DNA of 64,000 nt from assembly GCF_033366695.1 (NCBI RefSeq), contig NZ_JAOBTQ010000001.1, positions 4,464,001 through 4,528,000 of the forward strand, written 5' to 3'. The stretch's first letter is position 1, and each line of letters opens with the position of its first letter. This stretch comes from Streptomyces sp. SCL15-4 (lineage in GTDB: Bacteria; Actinomycetota; Actinomycetes; Streptomycetales; Streptomycetaceae). Position numbers and translations under genes: made by a program. Below are positions 21,777 through 57,331 of this stretch, one piece after another. The notes under the pieces are model-generated. The model did not search any database, was not told the origin of the DNA, and saw only the letters and a program-made list of their open reading frames with translations.

Positions 21777-21849
21777 GGGCCCTTAGCTCAATTGGCAGAG
21801 CAGTGGACTTTTAATCCATTGGTTGTGGGTTCGAGTCCCACAGGGCCTA
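21777..21849 (+). tRNA. tRNA-Lys (UUU), prophage attachment gene
   Basis: 73 bases with discriminator A. The acceptor pairs with one G-U at position 1-72; the anticodon loop CTTTTAA gives anticodon TTT, and the T-arm GTGGGTTCGAGTCCCAC is intact. The prophage begins immediately downstream, so the 3' half is the likely attB/attL core. Confidence 0.96.
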
Positions 21850-21850
21850 C
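21820..21850. other. Probable attL (tRNA-Lys 3' end)
   Basis: Inference: tyrosine integrases of actinophages usually recombine within the 3' part of a tRNA gene, and the integrase gene of this element lies at its far right end. The matching attR copy would lie beyond base 64000, so the core cannot be delimited here. Confidence 0.55.
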
Positions 21851-40622: not shown

Positions 40623-41474
40623 TCACCTCTTCACGCCGAGTAGGGTCATGCGGCGGCGACGTGCCGCCGCGGAGAGCCCGTCGACGTGGCGGGCCGGCTC
40701 AGGGCCGGGTGCCGGGGTCAGCGGGGTGGGACGGTGCCGGGCAGCGGCCCCCTCCTGCGAGGGGGTGCTGAGTCCGTGCATCGCCCGGAAAGCTGCGAAG
40801 CTGCGCTGCAGTTCCTCGACCTGGTCCTGGTCGCGCTCGTGCAGCGACTCCATCAGCCAGTCCACACCCGAGCGCGTGGAGCGAAGCCCAGCGGTGGCGT
40901 CGGGGTTGGCCGGCCATGTGACAGGTCCGGCCTCGAACAAGCGGACCTCCTTGATGGTCCGCTCGGGCAGCCCGTCGGGGTTGTGATCACTTACGCCCGG
41001 ATCGTGGTTCCAGTCCTCGCGCACGACCTCGAACATGAACGAGCTGCCGTAGGCGCCGGCGCGCAGCCCGGGGATCAGGTCCCGGTTGTAGGAGGTGTCC
41101 AGCAGCGGCACCTCCATGTACGGGGAGGACTCCCGCTCCTCCAGGACGGTGGCGACGCCGAGGCTCTTCTTGTCGATCTGCATGTCCCGGCCGTGGTTGA
41201 ACAGCACCTTCACCCCCGCCGGCCCCAGCGCCTTGATCGTGCGCTTGAACGCGCCGCGGGCGGTCTTCTCCAGGAACCGTCCCTCCCACCAGGAGTCGAT
41301 CTCGTACCAGGTATCGAACCGGGAGAACTCCACCGTCATCACGGTGCCGGTGTCGCCGGCCGTCTCGGTTCCGCTGGCGTCGACCGCGCCGACGTCGGCC
41401 CGGGCCTTGGTCAGGGTCGGCGCCATCGCGGCGCCACGGATCAGCTTGAGCCCGCGGATCGCGGCCATGGTCAC
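40623..41474 (-). CDS. Prohead protease (HK97 family)
   Basis: 283 residues. Motifs VKVLFNHGRDMQIDKKSLG near 100 (His) and GAYGSSFMFEVV near 145 (Ser) match the HK97-family serine protease. The C-terminal tail is a charged linker. It would remove the capsid delta domain during maturation. GTG start overlaps the portal stop codon by 4 bp. Confidence 0.88.
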   Translation of the reverse strand: MTMAAIRGLKLIRGAAMAPTLTKARADVGAVDASGTETAGDTGTVMTVEFSRFDTWYEIDSWWEGRFLEKTARGAFKRTIKALGPAGVKVLFNHGRDMQIDKKSLGVATVLEERESSPYMEVPLLDTSYNRDLIPGLRAGAYGSSFMFEVVREDWNHDPGVSDHNPDGLPERTIKEVRLFEAGPVTWPANPDATAGLRSTRSGVDWLMESLHERDQDQVEELQRSFAAFRAMHGLSTPSQEGAAARHRPTPLTPAPGPEPARHVDGLSAAARRRRMTLLGVKR

Positions 41475-53838: not shown

Positions 53839-55341
53839 TCACGACAGCACCGCCGCAACCCGCTGCCCCAGCCACTGGGCGACGTTGCAGGAGACGGCGT
53901 TCCCCGCTTGCATGGTCTGCTCGCCCTTGTTGCCGAGCACGATGTAGTCGTTCGGGAACCGCTGCGCCAGCAGCTGCTCGCGAGGTTGGATCATCCGGTA
54001 GTGGCAGTCCTCCAGGGCCGGGGCCGCAGCCAGTAGGCCGGCGGAGTCCTTCGTGCCGAGCGTGTGCAGCGGCTGTGTCACGGGCTTCGTGGCGGCGTTG
54101 CGGTACGGGATGACGAGCCAGTGGTGCCGCCCTTGTCCGGTCACAGTGTCGACCGGCTCGGTCACGGGGCGGGCGCTGCTGTGGCGGCGCAAGGTGACGA
54201 TGAACGATTCGTCGGCTTGCGGCGGTACAGCGAGCGCGTGGCCGTCCCGGGCGGTGATGGTCCCGAACGGCTCGGCGAGACTGCGCACCATGTCGACTGG
54301 GCGCGCGTTGCCGCCGTAGTTCTTCACGTAGAACGCCCCAGTCGGGACGAGGACGGCGTCGCCGATCTTCGCGGTGCGCGCCGGGAGGGGAGAGCCGTCC
54401 GCCGGAAAGGCACGGCCGTCGTGCCCGCCGTGGTTGACGGTCAGCACCATCCGCCGGTCGCCGAGCAGCTCAAGGCCCTTGCGGATCCGAGCGACGGTGT
54501 TCTTCGCCAGGGGGCGCAGCCCCTTCGCCTCCCGGTCCCCGATGCGGACGCCGAGGTTCGACCAGTCGATGATCGAGGCAGCCGGCCGAACGTAGGGCTC
54601 GACGACCGCGTGCCGGCAGCGCGTTCCGTTGGGGCAGCGGTAGACGTACTGAGCGCCGTACTTGCCCAGCTTGCGGCCGGGCTTCTTCCATGACTGGAAG
54701 GCGTGGACGGTCTCCTCGCAGACCGGGCACCAGGCCCGCGGGCGGGGCTGAACGTCCGGCAGGGGGACGCCCTTGCGGGTGCAGATGATGTAGATCCGGT
54801 CCCGCCACTGCGGCGCCGGGGCGTTGCCCTTCTCGTCTCCGGCGTGCGCCGAGGACAGGGACACGAACTGGATGTTGTAGCCGAGGGTGCGCATGCCCGA
54901 CAGCCACACGTCGAACAGCTCCCAGTCCGCAGCCTCCATCACGTTCTCGACCAGGACGGCCTTGTAACGGTGAACCTCGGTGGCGCGGATGACGTCCCAA
55001 AACGTTGCCCGGGTCCGCTCGAACGCGGCGCTAGGGACGGGTCCTAGCTCCTCGATGCCCAGCTGCCCGGCTCCGGCGGGGGTACGGCGGCGGCGCCCGC
55101 CGGCAGGGCTCAGCTCGGTGCAGATCGGCGAGGCCCACAGGATGTCGGTGCGCGGGAGGCGCCGCATGTCGTAGTTGTTGACGTCGGCGCAGAGGTGGTC
55201 GGCGTTCCGGTGGTTCGCGGCGTGCGTCTCGATGGCCCGCTGCCAGTGGTTCGCGGCGAGCTTGAGTTCCAGCCCGGCGGCGACGAGGCCGGTGGAGGAT
55301 CCTCCAGCGCCGCAGAAGATGTCGGTGAAGGTGAGGGACAT
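53839..55341 (-). CDS. DNA (cytosine-5-) methyltransferase
   Basis: 500 residues. Motif I FTDIFCGAGGSS at 5-15, motif IV SPIC at 71-74 with the catalytic Cys (P-x-C instead of PC), motif VI ENV at 132-134, motif VIII QWRDR at 178-182, and motif X near 475 (QAGNAVSCNVA). A four-cysteine insertion (CPVC at 205-208, CPNGTRC at 236-242) is probably a zinc ribbon. GGAGGTC before ATG 55341. It may protect phage DNA from host restriction. No cognate restriction gene is visible. Confidence 0.92.
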   Translation of the reverse strand: MSLTFTDIFCGAGGSSTGLVAAGLELKLAANHWQRAIETHAANHRNADHLCADVNNYDMRRLPRTDILWASPICTELSPAGGRRRRTPAGAGQLGIEELGPVPSAAFERTRATFWDVIRATEVHRYKAVLVENVMEAADWELFDVWLSGMRTLGYNIQFVSLSSAHAGDEKGNAPAPQWRDRIYIICTRKGVPLPDVQPRPRAWCPVCEETVHAFQSWKKPGRKLGKYGAQYVYRCPNGTRCRHAVVEPYVRPAASIIDWSNLGVRIGDREAKGLRPLAKNTVARIRKGLELLGDRRMVLTVNHGGHDGRAFPADGSPLPARTAKIGDAVLVPTGAFYVKNYGGNARPVDMVRSLAEPFGTITARDGHALAVPPQADESFIVTLRRHSSARPVTEPVDTVTGQGRHHWLVIPYRNAATKPVTQPLHTLGTKDSAGLLAAAPALEDCHYRMIQPREQLLAQRFPNDYIVLGNKGEQTMQAGNAVSCNVAQWLGQRVAAVLS

Positions 55342-55400
55342 GGTGACCTCCGTGGTGTGATGGGTGGAGGTCCGGGCCTGATAGCGACAGGCCCGGACCG

Positions 55401-57008
55401 CTACGCTGCGGGGATCAGCTGGCCCAGGACGCGGCCGACGCGCTCCTGGTCGATCAGGTCGGCGACGTCGCCGGCGGTGCTGCCGGGCGGGATTCGGATG
55501 CCGAGGCGGTGAGCCAGCGCGCACTGCCTGCCCGTGGGCCTGTCCTGACGCCAACGGGCCTGGCGGGTGACGAAGGCCTGTGGCGCGAGGGTCTTGGCTT
55601 GGTGCTCCAGCCAGGCCAGCGCCTCGGGCAGCGGCCGTGCGACGTCGGTCTTCGGCGGGTGCACGCCGTCCGCCTGCGTCCAGCGGCGCATCCGGTAGAG
55701 CCGGGTGCCGGGGTCGCGCTGCAAGAACAGGAACATGGCGCTGGTCAGCCGGATGAACCAGACGCCGTCCTGCGTGCGCAGCCAGCGGATCGCCGACCCG
55801 CCGAAGAGGTTGATCTCCTCGGCCTCGACCCGCGCGGCGAGCGCACGCCGCTGCTCGGCGGCCGCGTGCTCCTCGGCGATCTGCCGCAGGCTCCGGCCGG
55901 CCTCCGCCTGGCCGATCTCCCGCTCCGTCAGGTCGACCATGCTGGCGAGCTTGTGGCGGGTCGCGGCGCCCATGACGTCCAGCAGCAGCGCGTCCGCCTT
56001 CCCGGGAGCCGGGCGCAGGCCGCGGCCGACCATCTGCACGTACAGGCCGGCGCTCTTGGTCGGCCGGGCGACGACAACGCAGGACGTGCGTGGCGCGTCG
56101 AAGCCCTCCGTCAAGACCATGCAGTTGGTGAGCACCTGGACGTCGCCTGCTTCGTACCGGGCGAGGGTCGCGCGGCGCTCGTCGCGGCCCATGTCGCCCC
56201 ACACTGGGGCCGCCGTGATGCCGGCCGCGCGCAGCGACGCGGCGGCGGCCTGGGCGGTGGCGACGGTGGGGGTGAAGACGACACCAGGGCGGTCGGCGGC
56301 ATGGTCGCGGTACGCCTTGGCGATGGCGTCCAGCGCTCCAGAGTCCTCCAGCGCCTTGCCCAGCTGGCCGTCGACCAGGTCGCCGCCGCGGGTACGGACC
56401 CGGTCGAGGTTCAGGGTGTCGACCTTGATGGCCATGCCCCGGACGTCGCACAGGTAGCCGTCGCTGATCATGTCGAGGATGTCCAGGCGGTACACGACGT
56501 CCTGCCAGACCTCGGCCAAGCCGCCGTCTGCGCGGGCCATGGTGGCTGTGAAGCCAGCCACCGGCACACCGCCGTCCCAGGCGCCGAAGTGCCTCAGGAC
56601 CTCCATGTAGGTCGGGGCGGCGGCGTGGTGGCACTCGTCCACGATGATCAGGCCGATGTCCCGGATGGCCTCCCGCCGGCGGGGCACGGCCAGGGTCTGG
56701 ACGCTGGCCACGATCACGTCGGCGTCCGCGTGGTCGTCGCGCTGGGCCTTGACGATGCCGACCCGCAGCATCGGGTCGACCGAGAGCAGCTTGGAAGCGG
56801 CCTGCTCGATCAGCTCCTCCCGGTGGGCGATCACCAGGACGCGGCGGCCGTCGAGGCTGTCGAGCATCTGGTGCGCCAGGTGGGAGAAGACGACGGTCTT
56901 GCCGGCGCCGGTCGGCAGGACGACGGCCAGGCGCTGCTGGCCGGCGGCCCAGCCCTGGCGTAGCGCCTCGATGGCGTCGAGCTGGTACGGGCGGGGTGTG
57001 AAGGACAC
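55401..57008 (-). CDS. DECH-box helicase (SF2)
   Basis: 535 residues. Walker A LPTGAGKT at 31-38, DECH at 124-127, SAT-like GFTATM near 153, motif V TEGFDAP near 305 and motif VI QMVGRGLRP near 330. It resembles the phage SSL2/type III-like helicases used in DNA replication or restriction-evasion. A C-terminal domain of about 180 residues follows. Its upstream region is the iteron array. Confidence 0.92.
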   Translation of the reverse strand: MSFTPRPYQLDAIEALRQGWAAGQQRLAVVLPTGAGKTVVFSHLAHQMLDSLDGRRVLVIAHREELIEQAASKLLSVDPMLRVGIVKAQRDDHADADVIVASVQTLAVPRRREAIRDIGLIIVDECHHAAAPTYMEVLRHFGAWDGGVPVAGFTATMARADGGLAEVWQDVVYRLDILDMISDGYLCDVRGMAIKVDTLNLDRVRTRGGDLVDGQLGKALEDSGALDAIAKAYRDHAADRPGVVFTPTVATAQAAAASLRAAGITAAPVWGDMGRDERRATLARYEAGDVQVLTNCMVLTEGFDAPRTSCVVVARPTKSAGLYVQMVGRGLRPAPGKADALLLDVMGAATRHKLASMVDLTEREIGQAEAGRSLRQIAEEHAAAEQRRALAARVEAEEINLFGGSAIRWLRTQDGVWFIRLTSAMFLFLQRDPGTRLYRMRRWTQADGVHPPKTDVARPLPEALAWLEHQAKTLAPQAFVTRQARWRQDRPTGRQCALAHRLGIRIPPGSTAGDVADLIDQERVGRVLGQLIPAA

Positions 57009-57331
57009 GGGTCACCTCGATTCGGTGGAGAGGGGAGATCGGTACGCGCTGCGTACCGGCTGCGTACCGGCTGCGTACCGGGCAAAAAGGTGCTGTGACC
57101 TGCTCTTATGTCTCTCTCTAGAGACAGTGGTACGCAGGTACGCAGAAACACACAGGGGTCGATGTGCGCAGGCGCACGCGCACACACGCGCACGCGCGCC
57201 CACGCCTGAGGGGTGCCATTTCCAGGCGACTGCGTACCGCCCCGAAACCAGCTGTCGATACGCGTCTGACCTGCGCAGACGAGAGGCGCAGGGTGGTACG
57301 CACCTCGTGCGTACCACCGCCCCCAGGGCTC
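57009..57331. other. 323-bp gap between helicase and Prim-Pol genes
   Basis: No protein gene is supported. It holds the iteron-like array (57041-57318), a 7-bp stem around tctctctctagaga (57110-57127) and the alternating tract 57163-57202. Confidence 0.6.
57041..57318. repeat. GCGTACC/GGTACGC iteron-like array, candidate phage origin
   Basis: Nine copies of a 7-bp element in 275 bp: GGTACGC at 57041, 57129, 57137, 57295 and GCGTACC at 57051, 57062, 57073, 57232, 57309. Three are spaced exactly 11 bp; two lie 8 bp apart; the last two form a 12-bp perfect inverted repeat (57292-57318). The gap also has an alternating purine/pyrimidine tract. It lies between two replication genes. Confidence 0.7.

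Follow-up and report, generated by a model that had tools for sequence, protein, structure and literature searches.

A short stretch of repeats between two replication genes of a Streptomyces sp. SCL15-4 prophage raises the question of whether it represents the replication origin of this element or a site of another kind. The window, a 64,000-nucleotide stretch of the chromosome, contains most of the prophage, which spans ~42.7 kb between 45-bp att repeats; the attR copy starts at 64513, just past the window end, and is accompanied by a phage integrase match. Terminase, portal, major head, major tail and tape-measure families are all represented. PICIs are satellites lacking a full structural gene set of their own, and the structural families present here set the prophage apart from such elements. 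As originally predicted, the array occupies the gap following a PrimPol-DUF927 gene and ahead of a helicase gene, Pfam matches being found in both neighbours (Table 1), and its first iteron begins at the 17th base past the PrimPol-DUF927 stop codon. In the parts available of the literature matches listed, no description of this array was found.

Table 1. Positions in the window of the iteron region and its neighbouring features.
Feature	Position	Strand	Remarks
attL, 45-bp core in the 3′ half of tRNA-Lys	21806..21850	plus	
C5 cytosine methylase gene, 500 aa	53839..55341	minus	Neighbour, unlinked to the array
DEAD/ResIII-type helicase gene, 535 aa	55401..57008	minus	Pfam PF04851, PF00270, PF00271
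Iteron array	57041..57315		Eight TGCGTACC and one 7-mer GCGTACC (minus, 57041-57047)
TGCGTACC copies	57050-57057, 57061-57068, 57072-57079, 57231-57238, 57308-57315	plus	
TGCGTACC copies	57129-57136, 57137-57144, 57295-57302	minus	
30-bp stretch of highest AT content in the region	57084..57113		57% AT; between iterons; second candidate melting site
GCAGGTCA box 2	57096..57103	minus	
GC-rich alternating purine-pyrimidine tract	57162..57203		Within the largest iteron-free gap
Box GGAAATGGCACCCCTC of class A origins	57208..57223	minus	
GCAGGTCA box 1	57267..57274	minus	
Inverted repeat, 12 bp with 3-nt loop	57292..57318		Built from two iterons
PrimPol-DUF927 gene, 951 aa	57332..60187	minus	Pfam PF09250 (Prim-Pol), PF06048 (DUF927); proposed initiator

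The nine predicted GCGTACC copies are present, five on the plus and four on the minus strand, as are the three copies at an exact 11-bp spacing (57051, 57062 and 57073) and the hairpin with its perfect 12-bp stem, the inner bases of which differ in some relatives. Eight of the nine belong to the 8-mer TGCGTACC, which the window otherwise lacks. The 7-mer itself occurs 24 times in the window (shuffle mean: 9.04; 0/100 shuffles reach 24) and, because 15 of these copies lie outside the array, ~0.065 would be expected in 275 bp. This expectation is twice the figure of 0.03 originally given. The whole-genome count that had been proposed yielded 179 copies of the 8-mer in 8.42 Mb, eight of them inside the array, which by arithmetic corresponds to ~0.006 expected per 275 bp. 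Close pairs of GCGTACC (spacing up to 25 bp) also occur elsewhere in the genome, where 16 of the 19 direct pairs and 8 of the 12 inverted-pair rows (four places, both strands) are located; these comprise single pairs and one triple (2730382-2730430). Among the 100 of 179 places listed, three same-strand TGCGTACC copies share a 351-bp segment distant from the prophage (G000:C1:440072-440422); a further copy was not found within 2.5 kb, and this grouping is probably due to chance.

Two features of the neighbouring genes can be set apart from the array. A 1058-aa ORF (53839-57015) might be taken for a helicase-methylase fusion, but it covers two genes in different frames. The C5 methylase is found in few relatives (L044/L045: 86% identity; L046: 46%), and the array was rejected as a methylase target, the enzyme being restricted in the stretches compared to the window, L044/L045 and L046/L071, while arrays are general.

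Matches were identified in 7 of 150 same-genus genomes, that of the window included, and further loci were obtained from genome contigs (6) and viral contigs. The first set comprises 45 loci, after exclusion of 25 duplicates, L050 (no primase in the contig), and L018 and L083 (no array); in L018, which has a related PrimPol domain, the best repeat is merely a poly-C 8-mer. The commonest 8-mer past the initiator stop occurs in 3 to 14 copies per locus (n=45), L077 having just three exact copies of its own, and the arrays of classes A and B contain 6-14 sites. By their motifs the loci fall into class A (20 loci; TGCGTACC), class A2 (5; TGCGTAAC or GCGTAACC), class B (15; TGCGGGGA, TGCAGGGA or TGCGGGGT) and a D5 type (5) with other motifs. 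A second PrimPol-array-helicase module is located on the same chromosome as that of the window (L012; G000:C1:4872000-4890000). Its helicase and that of the window share 91% identity, and the C-terminal initiator half and iterons of L012 are those of class B; the two modules possibly represent two compatible origins in one cell.

The partner of the motif could be sought in 33 loci, the window included, each of which has the PrimPol domain, the C-terminal half and the helicase. Eighteen of them carry TGCGTACC and fifteen the TGCGGGGA type, and the motif class agrees with the C-terminal half of the PrimPol-DUF927 protein in 33/33. This half shares 62-100% amino acid identity inside a class and 22-31% across classes, whereas helicases reach 97% and PrimPol domains 78% identity across classes. 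In L041 and L039, for example, the helicases are 97%, the PrimPol domains 64% and the C-terminal halves 25% identical, and the iterons are TGCAGGGA and TGCGTACC, respectively. Swaps such as this one led us to reject both the PrimPol domain and the helicase gene as determinants of specificity. The distance between gaps follows that between C-terminal halves (Spearman 0.83) more closely than those between PrimPol domains (0.51) or helicases (0.24), no probability being attached to these values since the locus pairs are non-independent. The A2 loci show the converse case: the PrimPol domain is unrecognisable as the window type, the C-terminal half is kept at 53-57% identity, and closely related motifs (top 8-mer in 3-6 copies) are found at the same place in 5/5. 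These alignments suggest that the initiator helicase half and its iterons have very probably been swapped together as one cassette, with the PrimPol domain on one side and the helicase gene on the other both conserved. Because the array adjoins the C-terminal half, the co-variation may partly reflect their joint replacement by recombination.

Within class B, the fourth iteron base (TGCG or TGCA) is paralleled by three aligned columns that split 8 loci from 26, kinship being uncorrected. One of these lies in the last 130 initiator residues, in a presumed wing column, with Lys in 26/26 and Arg/Cys in 8/8, and separates TGCG from TGCA iterons, likewise without correction for kinship. For the last iteron base, by contrast, no class B residue that varies in parallel was found.

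The iterons are conserved beyond their surroundings. In 19 class A gaps, 60 of the 64 iteron columns show no variation, compared with 68 of the 217 other columns (alternating tract apart) and 14 of the 42 columns of the alternating tract. The occurrence of arrays was further assessed in 119 loci collected by alignment searches, in one of which the best 80 of 167 relatives were kept; this wider set shares 18 loci with the first and excludes the re-fetched contigs L084-L105. Under a threshold of at least four copies of the top 8-mer in the 450 bp starting 30 bp before the stop, an array was detected in 94/119 loci and in 84/2110 control windows. All class B loci were positive (33/33; controls: 17/617), as were 55/78 D5 loci (controls: 65/1390) and 6/8 distant DUF927 loci (controls: 2/103). 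The 25 loci without a detected array (23/78 D5 and 2/8 distant DUF927) mark limits of the origin rule or of the array test. No array was present in the tested stretch of viral contigs L151 and L170. Phage RootBeer harbors three AGTGACAC copies from ~300 bp past the stop, beyond another annotated gene, and in Arthrobacter phage Peas nine AGTGAC copies lie within 450 bp past the primase gene, under an annotated hypothetical protein. This Peas gene 61 (L232 5975-6316, corresponding to 40642-40983 of the phage record) covers the AGTGAC array proposed as an origin, and its annotation as a gene may be mistaken.

The protein half with which the motif co-varies is, judging from profile comparisons, related to Cch-type helicases. 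Its profile matches PDB 8tch, a 'Pathogenicity island protein' (e-value: 3.4e-16), and PDB 5dgk (positions 196-574 of 593; e-value: 1.4e-13), an 'Active helicase' which we take to be Cch. The Pfam domain HTH_56 ('Cch helix turn helix') matches 11 of the 12 aligned C-terminal halves, while the match of the window protein itself (19.3 bits) lies below the Pfam cut-off (26.2). With this sub-threshold match included, the protein has the sequence characters of a SaPI Rep/Cch-like helicase whose DNA-binding domain is C-terminal.

The gap and dyad analyses of the arrays covered those loci with enough iterons (four of the five A2 loci; for the added class B and D5 loci, a top motif count of five was required). 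The largest iteron-free gap of class A extends from a median of +101 to +187 (86 bp), with iterons on both sides in 20/20 loci, and contains the centre of the alternating purine-pyrimidine tract in 20/20 (chance share: ~0.32). A tract with at least 33 of 40 alternating steps is found in 20/20 class A loci and 2/760 control windows, in 5/5 A2 loci (controls: 1/182) and in 27/34 class B loci (controls: 2/1082). It is present in 16/79 D5 loci (controls: 8/1984) and 0/8 distant DUF927 loci, and was thus rejected as a feature of every family. By pairwise count, differences within the class A tract are mostly transitions (1102 to 470), while the other non-iteron columns show 3491 transitions to 5743 transversion-type differences. 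An AT-rich region between the iteron sets is lacking in class A, where the AT content of the gap (31%) is below that of the remaining origin (34%) and the most AT-rich 30 bp lie outside the gap in 20/20. In class B, the gap is 40% AT against 31%, and the most AT-rich 30 bp lie inside it in 30/34. Since the class A gap is GC-rich and the AT-rich stretch lies elsewhere, the strands may open either at the alternating tract or at the second candidate site. Dyad symmetry of the array exceeds the shuffled mean in 29/34 class B, 21/41 D5 and 1/4 A2 loci, but only in 2/20 of class A, and overall symmetry is therefore not claimed for the latter.

Two further boxes were observed in these regions. The GCAGGTCA box, of which the window has two copies, is found in 19/20 class A (controls: 35/760), 5/5 A2 (3/182), 10/34 class B (58/1082), 22/79 D5 (47/1984) and 0/8 distant loci (1/144). 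It recurs in origins whose iterons and initiator halves are unrelated. As a widespread host site it was rejected, with 599 genome copies against 493 for the reversed control, and no host role is assigned to it. The GGAAATGGCACCCCTC box belongs to the class A origins; its CACCCCTC part shows no change across the 19 aligned gaps, while the remainder varies in a few.

Taken together, the retained position of the array, the conservation of its iterons and the fact that motif and C-terminal half change together bear out the suggestion of a prophage origin, which is the best-supported reading of this comparative evidence. In all likelihood, the array is the replication origin of the prophage and is recognised by the C-terminal half of the PrimPol-DUF927 protein. 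The alternative offered with the original prediction, in which the repeats are operators where a phage regulator or the initiator binds to control transcription of the helicase operon, is improbable as the main function. Origin iterons can serve as operators too, and the array stops shortly before the helicase gene begins, a possible promoter position, such that control may be a side role; it nevertheless accounts for less than an origin does. The motif has wholly changed upstream of helicases that stay 91% (L012) or 97% (L041/L039) identical, 6-14 sites over ~300 bp on both sides of the tract exceed what an operator needs, and in 5/5 D5-type loci the array follows the initiator gene with no match to the window helicase in the compared stretch. 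Arrays of short repeats also make up centromere/partition or packaging sites. The large terminase gene is, however, ~12.6 kb distant, none of the ten ORFs of the region (among which the 1058-aa ORF was scanned rather than the helicase gene itself) matches a PHROGs partition family, and the motif tracks the initiator half, all of which makes such a function highly implausible.

A stem-loop origin of the pRN1 kind, in which a folded structure is recognised and repeats matter only as inverted copies, would account for the folding of the gaps as single strands: that of the window beats 100/100 shuffles (z -4.8) and that of the class B locus L012 100 shuffles (z -6.6), its two opposed iteron sets pairing as one long stem. 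Inverted iterons would fold likewise, so folding does not separate the two models. The window gap forms several separate hairpins rather than a single large stem-loop, relatives retain the iteron sequence itself, and in class A the majority of copies are direct or have no pairing partner, which renders this model very unlikely. The repeats might also be by-products of slippage that travel neutrally with the neighbouring gene end, given the physical linkage of the array and the C-terminal half. Near-invariant iterons amid drifting flanks argue against mere hitch-hiking, with adjacency to the gene end as a caveat; the copies moreover lie in both orientations at fixed places, and where the motif differs, it does so throughout an array. 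We consider this explanation barely credible.

The prophage-origin reading allows a mechanism to be proposed. After induction, the PrimPol-DUF927 protein would bind the TGCGTACC iterons that follow its gene via its C-terminal Cch-like winged-helix region and would assemble as ring helicases on the iteron sets flanking the ~86-bp central gap. These ring helicases would open the DNA between the sets, the N-terminal PrimPol domain would prime synthesis, and the neighbouring DEAD-type helicase may serve as an accessory. More speculatively, a GC-rich alternating tract whose physical behaviour (undertwisting/Z-prone steps) is kept, and not its exact sequence, might take the place of an AT-rich melting site at the centre of origins in high-GC actinophages, coupled to an exchangeable cassette of initiator half and origin that lets co-resident prophages keep compatible origins, a proposal we regard as possible but doubtful. 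If the origin reading is true, it provides a sequence rule for actinophage origins, namely to search just past the PrimPol-helicase gene. The natural swap series, in which each initiator half has its own iterons, could allow a recognition code to be derived, and the alternating tract raises the question of how origins open in 70%-GC DNA.

Several known systems share parts of this plan. In the available text on SCCmec and SaPI replication, Cch is described as having a DUF927 domain and being related to SaPIbov1 Rep, and the C-terminal domain of SaPI Rep as recognising iterons directly downstream of the rep gene (PMC7581432), while PICI origins are described as lying on the 3′ side of the initiator gene, two sets of iterons surrounding a centre (PMC6092414), which in PICIs is AT-rich. 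The window region resembles these rep (pri-rep)-ori units, as far as they are described there, in having short iterons immediately past the 3′ end of the initiator gene, in the sets around a centre and in the proposed reading of the origin by the C-terminal domain. The Cch-related C-terminal half and the iterons just 3′ of the initiator gene would accordingly place an origin of SaPI/PICI plan in a complete prophage. The D5-type relatives, rather than the window itself, recall SCCmec Cch2 and SaPI5 Rep: the Cch2 iteron is given as AAGTG (PMC7581432), and AGTG occurs in the top 8-mer of 16 of their 55 arrays. For the comparison with pRN1, the portions consulted of PMC4234260 place a required origin region of ~100 nt, a stem-loop, just downstream of the replication gene, as is the position of the window array, which consists of iterons instead. 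The same source proposes a large stem-loop origin rather than iterons for proteins combining primase, SF3 helicase and winged helix, some phages included, and the repeats found in phage BIP-1 were judged by its authors not to be the origin (PMC4234260).

The window module differs from all of these in certain respects. The alpha protein of phage P4 has a helicase of a family other than the DUF927 of the window protein. It is likewise a replication protein with a cognate ori, as is generally held and in part stated in PMC6092414. The window protein shares DUF927, the HTH_56 domain of 11/12 members and the 5dgk profile match with SCCmec Cch, for which neither a PrimPol fusion nor iterons bound by Cch itself are described in the passages available. 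Relative to SaPIs and PICIs, the proposed window origin resides in a prophage that has its own terminase, portal, head and tail genes, its initiator carries a fused Prim-Pol domain of the present type, and the class A centre is GC-rich and alternating instead of AT-rich like that of PICIs. What is new against the known plan, on the comparisons made here, is the apparent combination of a PrimPol-fused initiator, the exchange of initiator together with origin, and a GC-rich alternating centre in a complete prophage.
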